Assembly: GCA_947588965.1 (NCBI GenBank)
Contig: CANQAN010000008.1
Location: forward strand, 1-64,000
Length of the DNA stretch: 64,000 nucleotides
Source: an uncultured Helicobacteraceae bacterium
Lineage (GTDB): Bacteria; Campylobacterota; Campylobacteria; Campylobacterales; Helicobacteraceae
Direction of reading: 5' to 3'
The notes beneath the pieces are model-generated. The model made no database searches and was not told where the DNA came from. It saw only the letters and a program-made list of their open reading frames with translations. Below are positions 14,313 to 57,726 of this stretch, piece by piece (within the stretch, counting starts at the first letter, position 1; each line of letters begins with the position of its first letter). Position numbers and translations under genes: made by a program.

Positions 14313-16334
14313 TTAGAGTAGTTTGTAAATTATAATTTTGTCATTTTTTAAGACTTTTTGGAATAAGTTTTTGTCAAGTTTTTCAAAAAATAATCCCTGA
14401 AAATAAAAACTTTCTAAATAAGAAATATCACACAGCACGATTCTGTCATCTAAGAGGCGCAGAGCTACTAGAGAAGAGTTGTGATTAAAAGTTTTTGTCT
14501 CTCCGTCTTTTAGGTTAATGAATCTGTGGATTTGTATTTTGGAATCCCTTGCGGAGAGGATTCCGTTGGATGGTTCTAAGGAGAGATTGTCTTTAAAAAT
14601 AGCTTGATTGGAGTTTGCGTGCTGTGAGATGGCAAAGAATTTTGGAGATTTGAGTTTGTTTTCTCTCAAATCAAGTGTGCTAAAGGCGACGACATTAGGA
14701 AAAATCTCTAGTAAGCTTAGGGGTAAAATGACATAAATTGTTCCGCTAGAGCTGATATTAAGAGGCTCTGATTGCAAAATCTCTAGAGATTGCTTGAATC
14801 CTAATTTTTCAAAATATTCTTGCTTTAAAAAATCTTTGTGAGATTCTTGATAGAGCAGGAGTTTTGCAAGATTGTAGCTTAGAGTGTTGTTGGAATGGCT
14901 TAAAGCTAGGCTGATTGGGAAATTCTGCTTTCCTGAATGCTTTCCGCCATCAATAAACACATTGAGATCGCTAAAATAATTAATCAAATAGCCATAGTCC
15001 CACCAAGAGAGCGCAAAATCTCCCTTTTTTGCAGGAATGTTCTCTAGAATTTGTGCTTCAGAGCTTTCTAAAATAGGTCGCACAAGGTAGTTTTTGATAT
15101 GCAAAAGATGGGGAGTGATAGCAAGGAATGCTAATAATATCATAACCATATATTGTGTGGATTGTTTTTTGAATAGACATGAGCATTGCAGAGCGAAAAA
15201 TCCAAATCCTATAGCGGCAATGGGAATCGCATAAAAGCTGAAACGTAATCCCTGCAAGAGCGCAAAGAATCCTAAACACAAAAGAGGCAGAAAAATCAAA
15301 AAATTTCTGTGTTTTAAAATGAGCCAAAAGTACCCCACCAGACTTAAAGCAAATAACGCAGAATTCCCACTTATACGATAGGCAAGGGTTGTGAGATCGA
15401 TTTTTGAAGTCTCCGCGATAGAGTGAAGTGTGTTGAGGTAAGAAAAGGATTCTGTGTGTGTGGAAAATAAGGATTGCAAATAGGTTGTCTGAATAGCTAG
15501 GGGAATGACGAAACCAAAGAGGATTCCTAAAAACAGCGCAAAGGAAATGATTGGCATTGATTTGAATCTCTGCAAAAAGGGCAGTAAAAGTCCAAGTAGG
15601 AATCCTAAAGGAATCCACAAGAATTTTGAATCTAAAAGGAATGAGAGACAGAGGATTAGGATTAAGCCTAGATTTGCGGTTTTGTGGCTCCTTAGAATCC
15701 ATAGAATCAAACAATAGGCAATGAGAATGTAACGTGAGTTTGCGTAATAGCCTAGTGCAAATGCGCTAAGGGTTGTAAGAAGTGCAAAATGTAAGGGCTT
15801 CTTAGCATAAATTGCAAGAATGGCTATACAAACATCAAATGTTACGAGCAACATGTCGGTATCATAGTATCCAAACATCGTGCGATTGTAGTAGCTGATT
15901 CCTATTCCGCTTAAGATTCCACTAAGAGTGCAAACAATCATGCCAAAATTTCTTGTTGCAAATATCACGGGAAAGACAATGAGGCTTCCTAAGAATCCGG
16001 GTAGGAAAAAGAGAATCTTTTCTAGACTTAAGGGCAACAAAAAAGCAAGAGAAGCCGTGAGTATTGAGAGATATTCAAACATGGGAGCATTGAATGTGGT
16101 TTGGAAAGATTCTAGAGATTCTAATGTTAAGAGATTTGCAGAATCGGATTTGAGGAATTCTAAGAGATTTTTTGCACCTTGGGCATAAAAATAGCCATCG
16201 TGTGTGTTGAGGAGAATCGCGCTTTTGTGAAAATATTGCGGAAAGGATTCTAAACAATAGGGATAATAAAAGCGCAATATTACACAAATGCAATACACGC
16301 ATAAAGCAAGAATGAAAAACGCTCTCATATGCAT
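14313..16334 (-). CDS. pglB: PglB/STT3-family oligosaccharyltransferase
   Basis: [51 protein letters not shown]; multiple TM segments. Confidence 0.92.
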
Positions 16335-25294: not shown

Positions 25295-26032
25295 ATGATG
25301 TTGTTAAAAGTAGAAAATCTTACTAAAAAATATGGCACAAATCTCGTATTGGATAGGATTAATTTAGAGATTCCAAAGGGTGAGGTTTGCGCGATTTTAG
25401 GTCCTAGTGGTTGTGGGAAAAGCACATTTTTGCGTTGTATTAATGGGTTAGAATCCATACAGGGAGGCAAGATATTCTTTGAAGAATTGCAAATTGCGGG
25501 TGAAAATGTGAAAACAAAGTGGTCGCAAGTGCGCCAAAAAATTGGCATGGTTTTCCAAAATTACGAACTTTTCCCGCATTTGAGTGTATTAGAAAACATC
25601 ATTTTAGCCCCAATGAAAGTGCAAAAACGCAAGAGAGAGGAGGCGACCGAAGAAGCCTTAGGGCTTCTCTCTCGTGTGGGTTTAGAGGATAAAAAGAATA
25701 TGTATCCTAGAAGTCTAAGCGGCGGACAGAAGCAACGCGTTGCGATTGTGCGCTCACTTTGTATGCATCCTCAAATGATGCTTTTTGATGAGGTGACGGC
25801 TTCACTTGATCCTGAAATGGTGAAAGAAGTCTTAGAAGTGATTAGGGAATTGGCAAATGAGGGAATGACAATGTTGCTTGTAACGCATGAGATGAAGTTT
25901 GCAGAAAATGTCGCGGACAAAATTGTGTTTTTTGACAATGGAAAAATCGCTGAAATTGCTACACCACAAGAGTTTTTTAAAAATCCAAAGACGCAACGCG
26001 CCAAGCGTTTTTTGAGTGTTTTTGAATTTTAG
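25295..26032 (+). CDS. glnQ: Polar amino-acid ABC transporter ATP-binding protein (GlnQ-like)
   Basis: LGPSGCGKSTFLRCINGLE, LSGGQKQRVAIVRSL, MMLFDEVTASLDPE; ATG at 25295. Confidence 0.93.
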   Translation: MMLLKVENLTKKYGTNLVLDRINLEIPKGEVCAILGPSGCGKSTFLRCINGLESIQGGKIFFEELQIAGENVKTKWSQVRQKIGMVFQNYELFPHLSVLENIILAPMKVQKRKREEATEEALGLLSRVGLEDKKNMYPRSLSGGQKQRVAIVRSLCMHPQMMLFDEVTASLDPEMVKEVLEVIRELANEGMTMLLVTHEMKFAENVADKIVFFDNGKIAEIATPQEFFKNPKTQRAKRFLSVFEF

Positions 26033-27507
26033 TCACTCATATAATGCGCACCTATGGAAAAATCGCGCTTGAGGGCAGATTCTATGATGTTTTTTGCACT
26101 CATTAAACGCAAACGCAACAGACGTCCCACTCCGCTTTGCAACATCACTTCAACACCGCCTAATGCCTCATTAAGTCCCGATTTTTTGCGGATGATTCCA
26201 ACTTTATTCCACATAAGATTCCTTAGGATCTTTTTGAGATTCTCATCTTGCTCATTTTGTAAAGGCTCTGTGTGGAGCAAAAACTCTCTTGTTTTTTTGT
26301 TTTGATGGCTTTTTCCTAAAATGTCTTGTGCGCTACGTCTTGAAAAGACTAAGCCCTCTAAGAGAGAGTTTGAGGCGAGGCGATTGGCACCATGGACTCC
26401 TGTGCAAGCACATTCACCCACGGCATAGAGATTCTCCATGCCAACGACTTTTCCGACATAGTCTGTTTGGATTCCTCCCATAGAATAGTGAAATGCAGGG
26501 GAAATCGGAATCTTATCTTTGGGCAAATCAAAGCCAAAGGCACTAAGATTGCGCGCGATGTTTGGAAAACGTTCATAAAAAAAATCCTTTGAAAAGGCAC
26601 TAAGATCCAAATACACTTCTTTGTATTCTGGCGCGGAATCTTTATATTGGGATTCTAGTGCGAGCTTGTATTCAAAGATGCTCCTTGCGACTTTGTCACG
26701 TGGTGCGAGTTCGCCTTGTGCATCATAATCAAACAAAAAGCGTTTGCCAAAATAATCCACAATCTGCGCCCCCTCTCCGCGCAAGGCTTCGCTTAAGAGC
26801 ATTTTACGCGCATAGGGCGTTTTGACAAATACGGTGGGATGGAATTGCAACATTTCCATATCTTTGAGTTTCAGCCCATTTTCTAAAATCATTCCATGCA
26901 ATTCGCTAGAAATCGTGTAGGCGTTTGTGTGATATTCAAAGAGCGCACCAACGCCACCATTTGCAAGAATGATGTGGTTGGCATAGAGATTGTAATTGCC
27001 CCTTTTTGTTAAAACACTCACGCCATAGCAATGCCCATCTTCAATCAAGAGTTGTGTGACTGTGGCGTTTTTCCACAATGTATGCGAGACTTGCGCGATG
27101 AGATGCGTATGCAGTACGCGTCCTGTGGAATCTCCACCTGCATGAATGATTCGTGAAGTGCTGTGTGCAGCTTCTTTTGTGAATAGTAAATTTCCTTGTG
27201 CGTCTTTGTCAAAGGGAATGGCACGTTCAATCAAATCATCTAAAATCTCTAAACTCTCTTTGCTAAGAGCCTTCACTGCCTCAATATCGCACAATCCCGC
27301 TCCAGCATTGAGTGTATCTTCTATATGAGAGGTAATATCTTCTGTATTTTTTGCAACAGCGATTCCTCCTTGCGCATAGAATGTGTTGCATTCCCAAGGC
27401 TGATCTTTACAGAGAATGAGGACTTTAAGGTGTTTGGGGAGATTCAAGGAAGCATATAATCCCGCAACACCGGCACCGACAATAATCACATCAAAATTCA
27501 TGGTCAT
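26029..27507 (-). CDS. nadB: L-aspartate oxidase
   Basis: DVIIVGAGVAGLYASL, FYAQGGIAVA, GALFEYHTNAYTISSELHGM, HYSMGGIQTD, CTGVHGANRLASNSLLEGLVF. Confidence 0.95.
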   Translation of the reverse strand: MTMNFDVIIVGAGVAGLYASLNLPKHLKVLILCKDQPWECNTFYAQGGIAVAKNTEDITSHIEDTLNAGAGLCDIEAVKALSKESLEILDDLIERAIPFDKDAQGNLLFTKEAAHSTSRIIHAGGDSTGRVLHTHLIAQVSHTLWKNATVTQLLIEDGHCYGVSVLTKRGNYNLYANHIILANGGVGALFEYHTNAYTISSELHGMILENGLKLKDMEMLQFHPTVFVKTPYARKMLLSEALRGEGAQIVDYFGKRFLFDYDAQGELAPRDKVARSIFEYKLALESQYKDSAPEYKEVYLDLSAFSKDFFYERFPNIARNLSAFGFDLPKDKIPISPAFHYSMGGIQTDYVGKVVGMENLYAVGECACTGVHGANRLASNSLLEGLVFSRRSAQDILGKSHQNKKTREFLLHTEPLQNEQDENLKKILRNLMWNKVGIIRKKSGLNEALGGVEVMLQSGVGRLLRLRLMSAKNIIESALKRDFSIGAHYMSD

Positions 27508-30467: not shown

Positions 30468-30830
30468 CTAAAAATTCCGCTTAGAATCCCAACACCATTT
30501 TTGATATTGCTTAGAAACCTTGCATAAAGGGATTCCAATAATTTCTGGAAGAGAGTAAGAGTGATGTGCTAAGATGAGTTTCTGGAGTTTTTTGAAGTCT
30601 TTTTTAAATACTTTAAAATGAAGTAAAATTTCCTCTTCACACACTGCCTTAGGTTTGGAATCTCTGTGCTTAGAATCATTTTGTTTGAGAGATTCTTCAC
30701 ACCAAAAATAATGGCTCTTAATAGTGCTTTGATGGACACACGCGCTCAAATGGCACTCCAAAGCGATTTTAATGAGAGTCTCTGCGTTTTCTCGTGTCGT
30801 TGTGGTTTGTAAGAGCATTAATTTAGACAT
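30468..30830 (-). CDS. cutA: CutA1-like divalent-cation tolerance protein
   Basis: LMLLQTTTTRENAETLIKIALECHLSACVHQ...SHYFWCEE...LPEIIGIPL. Confidence 0.8.
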   Translation of the reverse strand: MSKLMLLQTTTTRENAETLIKIALECHLSACVHQSTIKSHYFWCEESLKQNDSKHRDSKPKAVCEEEILLHFKVFKKDFKKLQKLILAHHSYSLPEIIGIPLCKVSKQYQKWCWDSKRNF

Positions 30831-31114
30831 TAATCTTCTTTGTTGCGCTCACCAAGACGTTTTTTCTTTTCTTCTAGAGCCTTTTTTTTCTCTTCTTGTC
30901 GCATTTTTTCAAGATTGCGTTGGCGTTCTTTGGAATGTCTGTATTTTTCTATAAATTCTTGTCGTTCTGTTTGACTTTGGTAGGCGATAGGGCGGATAAA
31001 AAATATCACAAGCATGAGGACAAAAAAGAATATAGCAGTCTCTTGATTGTTGGTTAGGTGATACCAAGCCATCGCAACAATGAGCGATAAAAAAACCTTT
31101 AATGCATTAACCAT
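30830..31114 (-). CDS. Small two-TM membrane protein with long basic/acidic C-terminal helix
   Basis: Hydrophobic N-terminus, KE-rich tail; overlaps the cutA start. Confidence 0.6.
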   Translation of the reverse strand: MVNALKVFLSLIVAMAWYHLTNNQETAIFFFVLMLVIFFIRPIAYQSQTERQEFIEKYRHSKERQRNLEKMRQEEKKKALEEKKKRLGERNKED

Positions 31115-31122
31115 AGAGAATC

Positions 31123-31941
31123 CTATAACATTAATGGTGGGATTTTATGCTGAGCAAATCGCAACTCTTGTGCGCTTATTTGTGGGAAAAGAGCCAAAAT
31201 GACTTGTGGTATAAACAAAATAGGAATCTCGGCTAAATCCCTTCCTGCTGTGCTTTGTAGTTTCTTGCAATGTCCATCTAGAAGTTCAAATTGACTGATG
31301 TTTTGTGTGAGAATGAAATCCACACCGCAATCCACCATGGCATAATAATCCGTCGCTCCCATTTTGTAGGCAAGATGCGGATTCGTCTCTAGGAGATAGG
31401 CATAGCTCTCTTTAAAAAACGGCAAGATTTTTAATCCCGTGAGATCCTCTATGCGCTCTATGATCTGCGATTCTTTGAGCCCGTTTTCAAGCTCTCTGTC
31501 TATCAAAAATGCACACCTAAAGCCACTCCAGCGACGTGGCTTAATCTCTGCTCTCTTAAGAGAGCTTAGCATGATTTCTGGCGCGAAAGCAAAGGTGTTT
31601 TCTAACTCTAAAATGTCAATTTCTCTTGTGGATTCTTTCATTAAGGATTCCCTGAATTCTGAATTTTCATAGAATAATTTAAAGAAATGGGCAAAGGACA
31701 GAAGTGTCTGTGAATCGCAGACGAATAGTTTTTGTTTGTCATTTAACGCATTTTGAAAGACCCTTAAAAGATTTTTGTGAAATTCTAAGGGCGCAAGAAA
31801 AGGCAAAAACTTCTCTTCTAAGGGGAGTCTTTCTGTCTTTACAAAGGAGATTCCTAGCTTCTCGCACAATAACTTAACATTATGTGTTAAGATTTCAGAG
31901 GATTGATAGAGTGAATTCTGCACTAAAACATAAGATTCCAT
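31123..31941 (-). CDS. HdrB/SdhE (CCG-domain)-like protein lacking canonical FeS cysteines
   Basis: FHKNLLRVFQNALNDKQKLFVCDSQTLLSF...ENSEFRESL and KMGATDYYAMVDCGVDFILTQNISQFELLD...IPILFIPQVILALF align by eye to CCG/HdrB-type proteins; ATG at 31941 has an AAGGA RBS. Confidence 0.6.
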   Translation of the reverse strand: MESYVLVQNSLYQSSEILTHNVKLLCEKLGISFVKTERLPLEEKFLPFLAPLEFHKNLLRVFQNALNDKQKLFVCDSQTLLSFAHFFKLFYENSEFRESLMKESTREIDILELENTFAFAPEIMLSSLKRAEIKPRRWSGFRCAFLIDRELENGLKESQIIERIEDLTGLKILPFFKESYAYLLETNPHLAYKMGATDYYAMVDCGVDFILTQNISQFELLDGHCKKLQSTAGRDLAEIPILFIPQVILALFPQISAQELRFAQHKIPPLML

Positions 31942-31951
31942 TGTCTGTCCT

Positions 31952-32704
31952 TTATTTTGCATATGCTTTTAAGATTTTTGATTTGAAGTTTTGAATCTTT
32001 TTGTCCTCACAAATATCAAACAAAATCATCTTAAACTCTTGGATGCACACATCAAATTTCGCATCTTGTGGGAAAAGGTAGGTTTGCAAATTTTGCGCAT
32101 TGAGGATTCCATTTTCCAGATCGCAAACTTGCTCTAAAATCTCTGTTGTCTTGTGTTTTGCATACAAAGAGGCCGCTAGGATAAAATAGGCTTCACCTAA
32201 ATAATCTTGATTTTCCACACTCAATGGAGTTGCATAGGCAAAGGGCAAAAACGAGAGCAAAAACGTCTCCACCAAGTCTTGAGTGTTCATTTTTTCTGTT
32301 TTGATTTCTTTGAAATTGAAGTTTCTAAAAATACTGTGTGTTTCATCGGCTGCGAGTTCATCAAGCCCTAATCTCCTAAGTGGCGTGAGTTTTTGCAGAA
32401 AATAATCTGTGTTGATTGTCAAATCTTTGAGTGCAAGATGTGGATTGAGTGGCTCTATTTTCCATTCTTTACCAAACCTTTTATACAAGGCATCAATAGG
32501 TAAATCAAAGTCAAAAACCACCACATCGTTAATTTTGAATCCATAGGCACTGTAGTGATACTCATAGAGTTCGTGCTGTATGATTTGTAATAGTTCTAGC
32601 AGGGATTTTTCGAGATCGATTTCAACAGACAATTTCGCAAAATAGGGCAAATAATCTGTTTTAACATCAAAACGAAATAACTCCAAATCAATCTTTTTTT
32701 CCAT
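31952..32704 (-). CDS. SdhB/FrdB-like protein without FeS-cluster cysteines (DUF5644-like)
   Basis: VEIDLEKSLLELLQIIQHEL...KIEPLNPHLALKDLTINTDYFLQKLTPL resembles the succinate dehydrogenase FeS-subunit N-terminus; no CxxC clusters. Confidence 0.55.
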   Translation of the reverse strand: MEKKIDLELFRFDVKTDYLPYFAKLSVEIDLEKSLLELLQIIQHELYEYHYSAYGFKINDVVVFDFDLPIDALYKRFGKEWKIEPLNPHLALKDLTINTDYFLQKLTPLRRLGLDELAADETHSIFRNFNFKEIKTEKMNTQDLVETFLLSFLPFAYATPLSVENQDYLGEAYFILAASLYAKHKTTEILEQVCDLENGILNAQNLQTYLFPQDAKFDVCIQEFKMILFDICEDKKIQNFKSKILKAYAK

Positions 32705-32752: not shown

Positions 32753-33250
32753 TCATTTTTTAAACCTTTTATTTTTGGGATTAGACAATAATGCACGCAA
32801 GGAATTATTAATGCCATCTTTTTCTTTTTTTGTCGCTTTGGGCAGAATTTCTTGATTGTGCGCAAACATTGCGAGTAGATTCACATATAAGACAAAATCA
32901 GATGACAATTTTTCAACCAAATGATCGGTATTAGGCAACAATATCTGCACGATACATTCTAAAGGCACTGTGACGAAACTGCCCGTATTGTCTTCTCCAA
33001 AACCAGCCTCAAAGTAGAGATTCCCCATGCTTAATTCCAAACTCTCAAAAGTGTAGCCTGCAAGAATAAAAACGGTCAAATCACTAAAAGAGTTGCTAAT
33101 GGATTCTGGCAATAAGGGGTCAAATTTCACGCATTTTAAGTTGCAGAGAATGGAAAAATTGATTTTTTTGCGCATTAAATAGTCCAAAATTTCTTGACAA
33201 TGCTTGGTGCGCATGGTTTGAAATTTTCTGTCTTTTAATAAAGCATCCAT
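32753..33250 (-). CDS. Conserved hypothetical with SspB-like pattern (candidate ClpXP adaptor)
   Basis: LDYLMRKKINFSILCNL...LTVFILAGYTFESLELSMGNLYFEAGFGEDNTGSFVTVPLECIVQIL; basic C-terminal tail NPKNKRFKK. Confidence 0.5.
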   Translation of the reverse strand: MDALLKDRKFQTMRTKHCQEILDYLMRKKINFSILCNLKCVKFDPLLPESISNSFSDLTVFILAGYTFESLELSMGNLYFEAGFGEDNTGSFVTVPLECIVQILLPNTDHLVEKLSSDFVLYVNLLAMFAHNQEILPKATKKEKDGINNSLRALLSNPKNKRFKK

Positions 33251-33268: not shown

Positions 33269-35020
33269 CTAAGATTCATTCAAGATTGATTTAAAATTTT
33301 CTAACAATAATCTCACTTCACTCATTCCGATCTCCCAAAAATTGCTATCCTCAATATCTAATCCAAAAATCCTCACCAGCTCCTTAGGTGATTTGCTCCC
33401 TCCTAAACTCAAAAATTCCTCGTATTTTTCTATGAAATCTGTCTGATTGTTCCGATAGATTCCAAACAAAGCGCAGACTAGAAGCTGTCCATAGCTGTAT
33501 GCATAGCAATAAAAGGGCGTGTGGATAAAATGTGGGATGTATGACCACCATAGCTTGTAATTGTCTGTTAAAATAACGCTTTTGCCAAACATTTTTTGAT
33601 TTTCTTCTTGCCAAATCGCCTTTATGGTTTCTTTGTCTAATTCTCCTTCTTTTAAATGTATGAGACGCTCAAAATTTGTGAATACGTTTTGACGAAAGAG
33701 TGTGGCGAAAATATCCTCCAGCTTCCCAGAATAAACTTCTATTTTTTCTTCTCTGCTTAAATGTTTTTGAATTTTATCAAACAGCAACATCTCTGCGAAG
33801 ACTGAAGCTGTTTCTGCTGTCGTTAAAGGTGTGTCCGCATTCAAATATCCGACTTTGTAGGAGAGTTTTTGATGGATTGTATGCCCTAGCTCATGAGCCA
33901 TAGTGAATACATCGCGCCTCCTGTTTGTGTGATTGAGCATAAGATAGGGATGGGTACTTGGAGTGGCTCCGTGGCTGAATGCGCCGCTTCTTTTGTATTC
34001 GCGCGGATGGGAATCCACCCACCCCTCTTCAAATGCGCATTTTGCGATATTATAAAATGTCTCTGAAAACTCTCTGAAGGTTTCTAGGACGATATTTTTA
34101 GAATCTTCATAGCCAAAAGTCGCTTTATCTTTGCTAGAAAGAGGCGCATAGCGATCGTAATCATAGAGACAATCAAGTCCTAGAATTTTGGCTTTTAAGA
34201 GATAATATTCTTCTACGATTCCGACATTTTTGTTGATGGTCTCCACCATCGCATCGACACTTTTTTGAGTGGTTTGATTACTGATGTGTCTTGATTCTTC
34301 TAATGTTTTATAGCCACGTAATTGTGCAGTGATTTTGAGATCTTTTCTGATGACATTATAGATATAGGTGAGGAGGTCTAAATTCTCTTCTAGCACTCTA
34401 CTTAGCGATTCTTGCGCCATTTTGCGCACCTCTCTATCGCTTTCATAGAGTAAGCTTAAAACTTCCTCTTCGCCTACAAGCTTAGGAATTCCATTGCTGA
34501 TAATCTCAAAACGTAAGCGACTTAAATGCTCATCAAACAAGCGTTTGAAGCTATCCACACTCACGGGCTGTGTTTTAAGCAGAATTTGCTCTTCTTTTAA
34601 TGTTAATTGATGTTGGGATTCTTTGTCTAAAAGCTCCAAATAATAGCGATATTCCTTAGCGCATTCTATGAAATGGCGCTTGACTTCCGCTTTGATGGTG
34701 TTGAATTCTAGTGTAAAAAAGAGCAAATGTTCTGTGGCGCGATTTGTTTGCATTTCACATTCTGCATAAAACGCACCCTCTCTTGTATCTTGTGCAAAGC
34801 ACAAAAATGCATAGGTCATAATCCTAGAAATTTTTGCACAAAGCTCTTCATAGCGACGCACACTTTGATAAAAGGATTCTGTATTAAGCTCTTCTAAACG
34901 ACCCTTGTATTGCTTCTCGAAAGACTGTGCTTCATTAAGTGTTGTTTGCATGGATTCTTGCAGGGAATGCTTGTTTTGAAAAAGGGCTGTAAGATTCCAA
35001 ATATCTTGCGCATTAGACAT
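33269..35020 (-). CDS. pepF: Oligoendopeptidase F-type metallopeptidase
   Basis: FTMAHELGHTIHQ zinc motif; M3 family architecture. Confidence 0.94.
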   Translation of the reverse strand: MSNAQDIWNLTALFQNKHSLQESMQTTLNEAQSFEKQYKGRLEELNTESFYQSVRRYEELCAKISRIMTYAFLCFAQDTREGAFYAECEMQTNRATEHLLFFTLEFNTIKAEVKRHFIECAKEYRYYLELLDKESQHQLTLKEEQILLKTQPVSVDSFKRLFDEHLSRLRFEIISNGIPKLVGEEEVLSLLYESDREVRKMAQESLSRVLEENLDLLTYIYNVIRKDLKITAQLRGYKTLEESRHISNQTTQKSVDAMVETINKNVGIVEEYYLLKAKILGLDCLYDYDRYAPLSSKDKATFGYEDSKNIVLETFREFSETFYNIAKCAFEEGWVDSHPREYKRSGAFSHGATPSTHPYLMLNHTNRRRDVFTMAHELGHTIHQKLSYKVGYLNADTPLTTAETASVFAEMLLFDKIQKHLSREEKIEVYSGKLEDIFATLFRQNVFTNFERLIHLKEGELDKETIKAIWQEENQKMFGKSVILTDNYKLWWSYIPHFIHTPFYCYAYSYGQLLVCALFGIYRNNQTDFIEKYEEFLSLGGSKSPKELVRIFGLDIEDSNFWEIGMSEVRLLLENFKSILNES

Positions 35021-57613: not shown

Positions 57614-57726
57614 CAAAGAAACCCTTTTTAAGATACTTGCGGCACACAAATTTTCCAGAGGCTCTGCTGTGTTCCCACCCTGAAGCATTATCCAAAAAAC
57701 TCATTGCACAAGTCTCAAAAAGGGCG
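57614..57726 (-). ncRNA. ffs: Signal recognition particle RNA (4.5S, small bacterial type)
   Basis: Minus strand: CCCUUUUUGAGA-CUUGUG...UUCAGG-GUG-GGAA-CAC-AGCAGAGC...CGCAAG...AAAAAGGGUUUCUUU; canonical CAGG-NNN-GGAA-NNN-AGCAG hairpin, matching closing stem, TATAAT just upstream. Ends approximate. Confidence 0.9.

Follow-up and report, generated by a model that had tools for sequence, protein, structure and literature searches.

The window, a 64,000-nucleotide stretch of a contig from an uncultured Helicobacteraceae bacterium, encodes two neighbouring proteins, pseudo-SdhB (B) and pseudo-SdhE (E), which are well supported as homologues of SdhB/FrdB and HdrB/SdhE, respectively, with the corresponding folds, and which lack the cysteines that bind iron–sulfur clusters in those subunits ("Cys-free" below refers to these ligands). 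The family to which they belong is old, monophyletic, and order-wide rather than a case of Helicobacter-specific decay. Already known are the Pfam family DUF5644, together with HdrB-like_C, and the crystal structure of an H. pylori member (3KWL); what appears to be new, in that no description was found in the literature searched, is an order-wide, cofactor-free SdhBE paralogue derived from the sdhABE locus. Electron-transfer subunits seem here to have been turned into a non-redox protein, with their clusters stripped, selection acting across the order, and the intact enzyme alongside in several families.

Table 1. Positions in the window of the gene pair, its altered cluster sites, and other features discussed
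Feature	Position	Strand	Basis
NadB, SdhA-family flavoprotein	26029..27507	-	
Small membrane protein, 94 aa, directly downstream of the pair	30830..31114	-	ORF, locus comparison
Pseudo-SdhE, Cys-free HdrB/SdhE-like protein, 272 aa from the most likely start (ATG at 31941)	31123..31941	-	Pfam, AF2, Foldseek, tree, profile
E, once the second CxxC, now N221-I-S-Q224	31291..31302	-	
E, once the second CCG, now S186-Y187	31402..31407	-	
E, once the first CxxC, now VCDSQ (residues 81-85; ligand columns D83 and T86)	31708..31722	-	
E, once the first CCG of HdrB/SdhE, now P47-L48	31819..31824	-	
Pseudo-SdhB, Cys-free SdhB-like protein, 250 aa	31952..32704	-	ORF, Pfam, SdhB model, AF2, Foldseek, tree
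B, once the second cluster motif, now GILNAQNLQTYLFPQ (residues 199-213)	32066..32110	-	
B, once CxxCxxCxxxCP, now FLLSFLPFAYATP (residues 148-160; L149, F152, F155, and T159 at ligand positions)	32225..32263	-	
B, deletion point of the genuine SdhB [2Fe-2S] Cys loop, after A53	32545..32546	-	Alignment
Upstream neighbour, 165 aa, weakly similar to SspB (conserved context only)	32753..33250	-	
pepF-like M3 peptidase, conserved operon neighbour	33269..35020	-	
Small SRP RNA (RF00169), ordinary	57623..57720	-	

Genes and parental folds

Both open reading frames are intact and lie next to each other on the minus strand. The first-pass annotation had described them as adjacent and slightly overlapping; the adjacency stands, whereas the overlap depends on the first ATG of the pseudo-SdhE frame, which opens at 31962 and would give 279 aa (31123-31962, minus strand). 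The second ATG, at 31941, has an AAAGGA Shine–Dalgarno-like sequence just before it, and orthologues begin at the same MES; judged from sequence, this ATG is most likely the start, and with it the two genes lie 10 nt apart.

In Pfam, the 250-aa product matches DUF5644 (PF18712) at 1.8e-8, with 34.8 bits against a cut-off of 25, and the 279-aa reading of its partner matches HdrB-like_C (PF22196) at 1.2e-27 (96.2 bits; cut-off 33.4); neither protein matches PF03937 (Sdh5/SdhE/SDHAF2). Pseudo-SdhB also matches the SdhB model PRK12385 at 6.9e-5, and as a single sequence gives a sub-threshold match to Fer2_3 (0.043), as would be expected if the resemblance to SdhB and HdrB were superficial, convergent, or due to chance. 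That explanation can practically be discarded, however, since Fer2_3 rises above its cut-off in orthologues from three genomes (G007, G018, and G028) and profiles built without genuine members reach the Cys-bearing proteins. A profile of 41 Cys-free SdhB-like orthologues, from which genuine SdhB was excluded, recovered 3KWL (2.2e-70) among PDB chains, followed by E. coli FrdB (9.1e-8) and SdhB (4.5e-5), and in related genomes reached E-type SdhB at up to 3.5e-34; the equivalent Cys-free E profile found HdrB 5odc_B, over its full length, at 8.6e-20. In genomes whose sole PF13085 protein is FrdB, the B profile did not list it. By this profile evidence, the closest Cys-bearing relative of B is the E-type SdhB of SdhABE, and descent from the fumarate reductase subunit FrdB is disfavoured; the pair had first been described as fumarate-reductase-like.

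Structure prediction with AF2 gave a mean pLDDT of 93.6 for B and 93.5 for E, and 3KWL was the top Foldseek match in the PDB for both. It is followed, for B, by FrdB/SdhB chains (probability 1.0, TM-score 0.5-0.64), with a large rmsd that, in the predicted model, is consistent with shifted domains, and, for E, by HdrB chains (TM-score about 0.7-0.75). Matches to amino-acid racemases and sugar-binding proteins (TM-score below 0.45) were set aside as generic Rossmann-like similarity. The residues that frame the SdhB N-domain (F10, F12, D17, N59, P85, and D94) are common to B and genuine SdhB. The SdhB-like and HdrB/SdhE-like assignments, originally made by eye, are thus borne out by Pfam, profiles, predicted folds, and Foldseek, with the parental folds kept in both proteins.

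Loss of the cluster ligands and its age

Eleven alignment columns are cysteine in all 31 genuine SdhB/FrdB sequences and in none of the eleven does the window's B carry one; across 73 Cys-free homologues, these columns are essentially never cysteine, and when 49 of the proteins were re-aligned, seven showed one cysteine at such a column and no member showed two. The [2Fe-2S] loop, which carries two of the four [2Fe-2S] cysteine columns, is deleted in all 73. At the [4Fe-4S] ligand columns, Cys-free B proteins have L/Y/F/I, F/Y/L, and I/F/L/Y, with T/S at the fourth, and the refilled sites look like a repacked core. The alignment pairs GILNAQNLQTYLFPQ with GxWxCxxC...CP, exactly as had been done by eye. 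Among Cys-free HdrB-like proteins, CCG and CxxC are missing as sets, and hence no noncubane clusters are expected in E. The absence of cluster-ligand cysteines from both window proteins, the central claim of the first-pass annotation, is therefore upheld.

The cysteines that do remain (B 194, 220, and 232; E 33, 82, 150, 212, and 232) were considered as relocated ligands and rejected, none being invariant family-wide, although C82 of E is nearly so within the genus-centred set. Electron transfer through the parental clusters is impossible for the Cys-free pair, and a non-redox role is the natural reading. A further alternative is a novel enzyme or sensor, in which the HdrB-like cavity would now bind another cofactor or a small molecule, and the (near-)invariance of D211, D215, F225, R241, and H272 of E across very divergent members could be taken in that sense. 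Most of these residues are, however, also common in genuine SdhE and so look structural, hydrophobic residues fill what were the [4Fe-4S] sites of B, and no new invariant catalytic cluster was seen, which together leave this alternative rather improbable.

That cysteines were lost, as opposed to never having been present, is favoured by a solitary CGF/CGY, in place of the CCGF of genuine proteins, found in a few deep-branching HdrB-like members (L063, L069, L070, and L076) and apparently vestigial. The polarity otherwise follows from the distribution of the proteins in 14 control genomes, in which Cys-bearing SdhB (11/14) and CCG proteins (12/14) are widespread and DUF5644 is absent (0/14). 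The original reading was that both partners of an electron-transfer complex had lost their cofactors, with the proviso that orthologues in which the cysteines had never existed would speak against it. A loss within Helicobacter is not supported: the ligand set is missing from the orthologues of every family examined, which dates the loss before the radiation of the order Campylobacterales; the proviso thus applies to the orthologous family itself, but not when that family is set against its paralogous outgroup.

In unrooted trees, the Cys-free proteins form one group with 100/100 support, both for B and for E. Of 250 genomes drawn from the class, 153 carry HdrB-like_C (PF22196) above its cut-off, a count that omits sub-threshold matches because these include genuine SdhE; for DUF5644 the figure is 95 of 200 genomes drawn from the phylum. 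Three architectures occur: split B and E genes in the window's genus and in Wolinella-type and Arcobacter-type genomes; a long fusion of about 495-560 aa in H. pylori and others; and a short fusion of about 340-410 aa, without most of the first HdrB half, in Campylobacter and several other families.

As the window's genus is too divergent for the purpose, dN/dS was taken on the fused orthologue of the H. pylori group, where the pairwise median is 0.098 (59 pairs; B half 0.063, E half 0.131). The pair is thus under strong purifying selection, in agreement with the initial impression that it is intact, paired, and retained. Recent decay within the species or genus is ruled out, given that low ratio and a ligand set present in no orthologue. 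Decaying relics without function are a very improbable explanation more generally: the cofactor ligands are completely lost, in one congener (G014) a truncated E and a remnant of B are all that is left, and several genera are without the pair, but a dN/dS of about 0.1, frames that are open in nearly all carriers, high-confidence folds, and retention across the order all disfavour decay. Among Helicobacteraceae, the pair was not detectable in genera g9, g12, and g13. Examined members of g9 and g12 still encode FrdB, which indicates that the pair is dispensable there and not generally needed for Frd.

Gene neighbourhoods and the sdhABE locus

In most Helicobacteraceae loci examined, pepF is followed by an SspB-like gene (155-185 aa) and then by B and E, or by fused BE; a small membrane protein often comes next, and a TerB-domain protein is present in some genera. 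None of these neighbours is a redox gene. The 94-aa protein downstream of the window's pair resembles, by eye, the small transmembrane protein that follows the fused gene in an H. pylori-type locus (L080). In 28 loci, the conserved 165-aa protein is encoded downstream of pepF and ahead of the pair; it has a strongly conserved C-terminal tail, NPKNKRFKK. SspB is a ClpXP adaptor, and a 28-member profile of the 165-aa family scored 32.0 in hhalign against E. coli SspB, compared with a maximum of 21.5 over 50 shuffles; one member matches PF04386 at 0.077, and a search for PF04386 in the window's own genome gave nothing. Two damaged loci were also seen. In G014 (locus L185, 4375-4956), a natural remnant, E is cut to 193 aa and B is down to a 28-residue match with stops, and the SspB-like and pepF genes are still present; in a draft genome of H. 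bizzozeronii (L172), pepF and E lie in several fragments, through frameshifts or sequencing errors.

Such a neighbourhood invites the view that the pair has been neofunctionalised as a scaffold or adaptor with no tie to complex II, and that it takes part, together with the pepF, SspB-like, small transmembrane, and TerB-domain proteins, in an envelope process or in protein quality control. The conserved gene order (with the last two partners in a subset of loci) speaks for it, as do a dN/dS that indicates a maintained function and the persistence of the pair where E-type sdhABE was not found, namely in the window's genome and the f20 members examined. Outside the Helicobacteraceae, however, this neighbourhood is absent, and the Cys-free gene is mostly found at thiL/truD and, in eight genomes, next to sdhABE; we regard the scaffold as a serious possibility, only slightly less probable than the flavoprotein partner proposed below, though it too falls short of an even chance. 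A role through NadB, which lies about 3.6 kb from the pair, was also considered and is weak, as the proximity is kept only in close relatives.

The eight genomes in which a Cys-free gene stands beside genuine sdhA-sdhB-sdhE come from five families. The gene is directly upstream of sdhA and co-directional in G048 (where it overlaps sdhA by 4 nt), G145, G161, G223, G238, and G242; in G206 it is adjacent and divergent, and in G092 it is in the same block. These eight are among 13 genomes examined in which both a Cys-free gene and E-type SdhB were found, and in them the genes are within about 6 kb of each other; of the other five, G024 has them at a great distance, and G036, G039, G045, and G058 have them on different contigs. 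The order in G161 (L184) is truD, thiL / Cys-free BE, sdhA, sdhB, sdhE, and a desulfoferrodoxin-like gene, with a similar order in G238 and G242; the names thiL, truD, and desulfoferrodoxin are putative, assigned by eye from the sequences. In several Arcobacter-type genomes (f20: L062 and L068; also L066, from a genome coded f11), B-E lies between thiL and the desulfoferrodoxin-like gene, the position that sdhABE has in G161. The simplest reading is an ancestral locus thiL / BE-sdhABE whose sdhABE genes subsequently disappeared or were relocated. Adjacency to sdhABE, with the profile tie to E-type SdhBE, makes the pair look like an ancient sdhBE paralogue, which appears to have outlived sdhABE in the Helicobacter, Campylobacter, and Arcobacter lineages. 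The adjacency itself can reflect tandem origin rather than function.

Possible role and comparison with known systems

With relatives throughout the order, often beside the genes of the working enzyme, the pair may well serve that enzyme, or its flavoprotein, in a non-redox capacity. The proposed course is that an sdhB-sdhE paralogue of the E-type (SdhABE) complex II would have lost all iron–sulfur ligands and the [2Fe-2S] loop before the Campylobacterales families diverged, with both folds kept, and that the resulting cofactor-free mimic of the SdhB/SdhE module would act as a non-redox protein partner. It may bind a flavoprotein of the SdhA/FrdA type, on or close to the face where the iron–sulfur subunit sits, and there hold it, help it to mature, or regulate it, either ahead of the redox-active subunits or in their place. 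By analogy with known assembly partners, such docking for assembly or regulation is put forward tentatively, as a reading that falls short of an even chance. The [2Fe-2S] loop of complex II is on the flavoprotein-facing side, and its deletion could alter docking, which counts against a mimic. In the window's genome, no E-type SdhB was detected and the one PF13085 protein lies next to FrdA. Since no E-type sdhABE was found there, the client would be FrdA (C17, match at 14601-15812) or another member of the family, such as NadB; one further FAD_binding_2 protein is the remaining candidate.

The assembly factor SdhE/SDHAF2 occupies the same FrdA surface as FrdB (PMC5773532). PF03937, the family of this factor (SdhE/SDHAF2/Sdh5), was found in none of 50 genomes (the window's own and 49 relatives) and was found in the E. 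coli and Caulobacter controls. It is an unrelated small protein, and the likeness to it is a proposed analogy only, that of a non-redox flavoprotein partner at the FrdB site; on that analogy, a Cys-free copy of the iron–sulfur module is a plausible stand-in for it. The more specific proposal, that Campylobacterales without SdhE/SDHAF2 use a cofactor-stripped SdhB-SdhE paralogue as a "pseudo-subunit" at the iron–sulfur site of SdhA/FrdA for flavoprotein maturation or regulation, is doubtful at present. Should the pair serve complex II, it would point to a way in which Campylobacterota achieve flavoprotein maturation in the absence of that factor.

The E-type SdhB/SdhE and MfrABE of Wolinella and Campylobacter have the same two folds as the window's pair, in the same order, B then E. 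In contrast to the pair, the E-type complex has its clusters; the pair lacks the three cluster sites of SdhB and the "10-cysteine motif" of genuine SdhE (PMC2680327). HdrB of heterodisulfide reductase (5odc and 8rvu) shares its fold with the window's E at a TM-score of about 0.75. TfrB, of the CoM/CoB thiol:fumarate reductase, carries iron–sulfur clusters and is an SdhB-HdrB fusion, as in the fused H. pylori form; its model is a weak match (0.063), and the window's genes, split and Cys-free, differ from the single fused, Cys-bearing chain of the TfrB type.

The closest counterpart is 3KWL, an uncharacterised H. pylori protein that is a one-chain fused version of the same pair and the best PDB match for both window proteins, in sequence and in fold. 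It differs in being the product of a single gene, and identity is only about 20% over the E half and 26% over the B half. At locus L080, the fused product aligns with 3KWL across residues 20-514 (phmmer, 1087.8 bits), and we take 3KWL to be the same protein as HP0468, which is listed as the H. pylori DUF5644 protein (PMC9570263). No literature on the function of DUF5644 was found; HP0468 has been described as an unknown protein that is upregulated by H2 and has variants associated with gastric cancer risk (PMC6090961). It is also listed as under-represented in Helicobacter with unsheathed flagella (PMC9570263). Divergent split orthologues are nevertheless present in H. pullorum, H. rodentium, H. 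mesocricetorum, H. apodemus, H. valdiviensis, and H. burdigaliensis (L156, L158, and L161-L164), at least some of which are cited in that study, and as these are split and about 20% identical, the flagellar association may reflect blastp misses. Through the comparison with E-type SdhBE, HP0468, which is conserved and structurally solved but has no assigned function, can for the first time be placed in an evolutionary setting.
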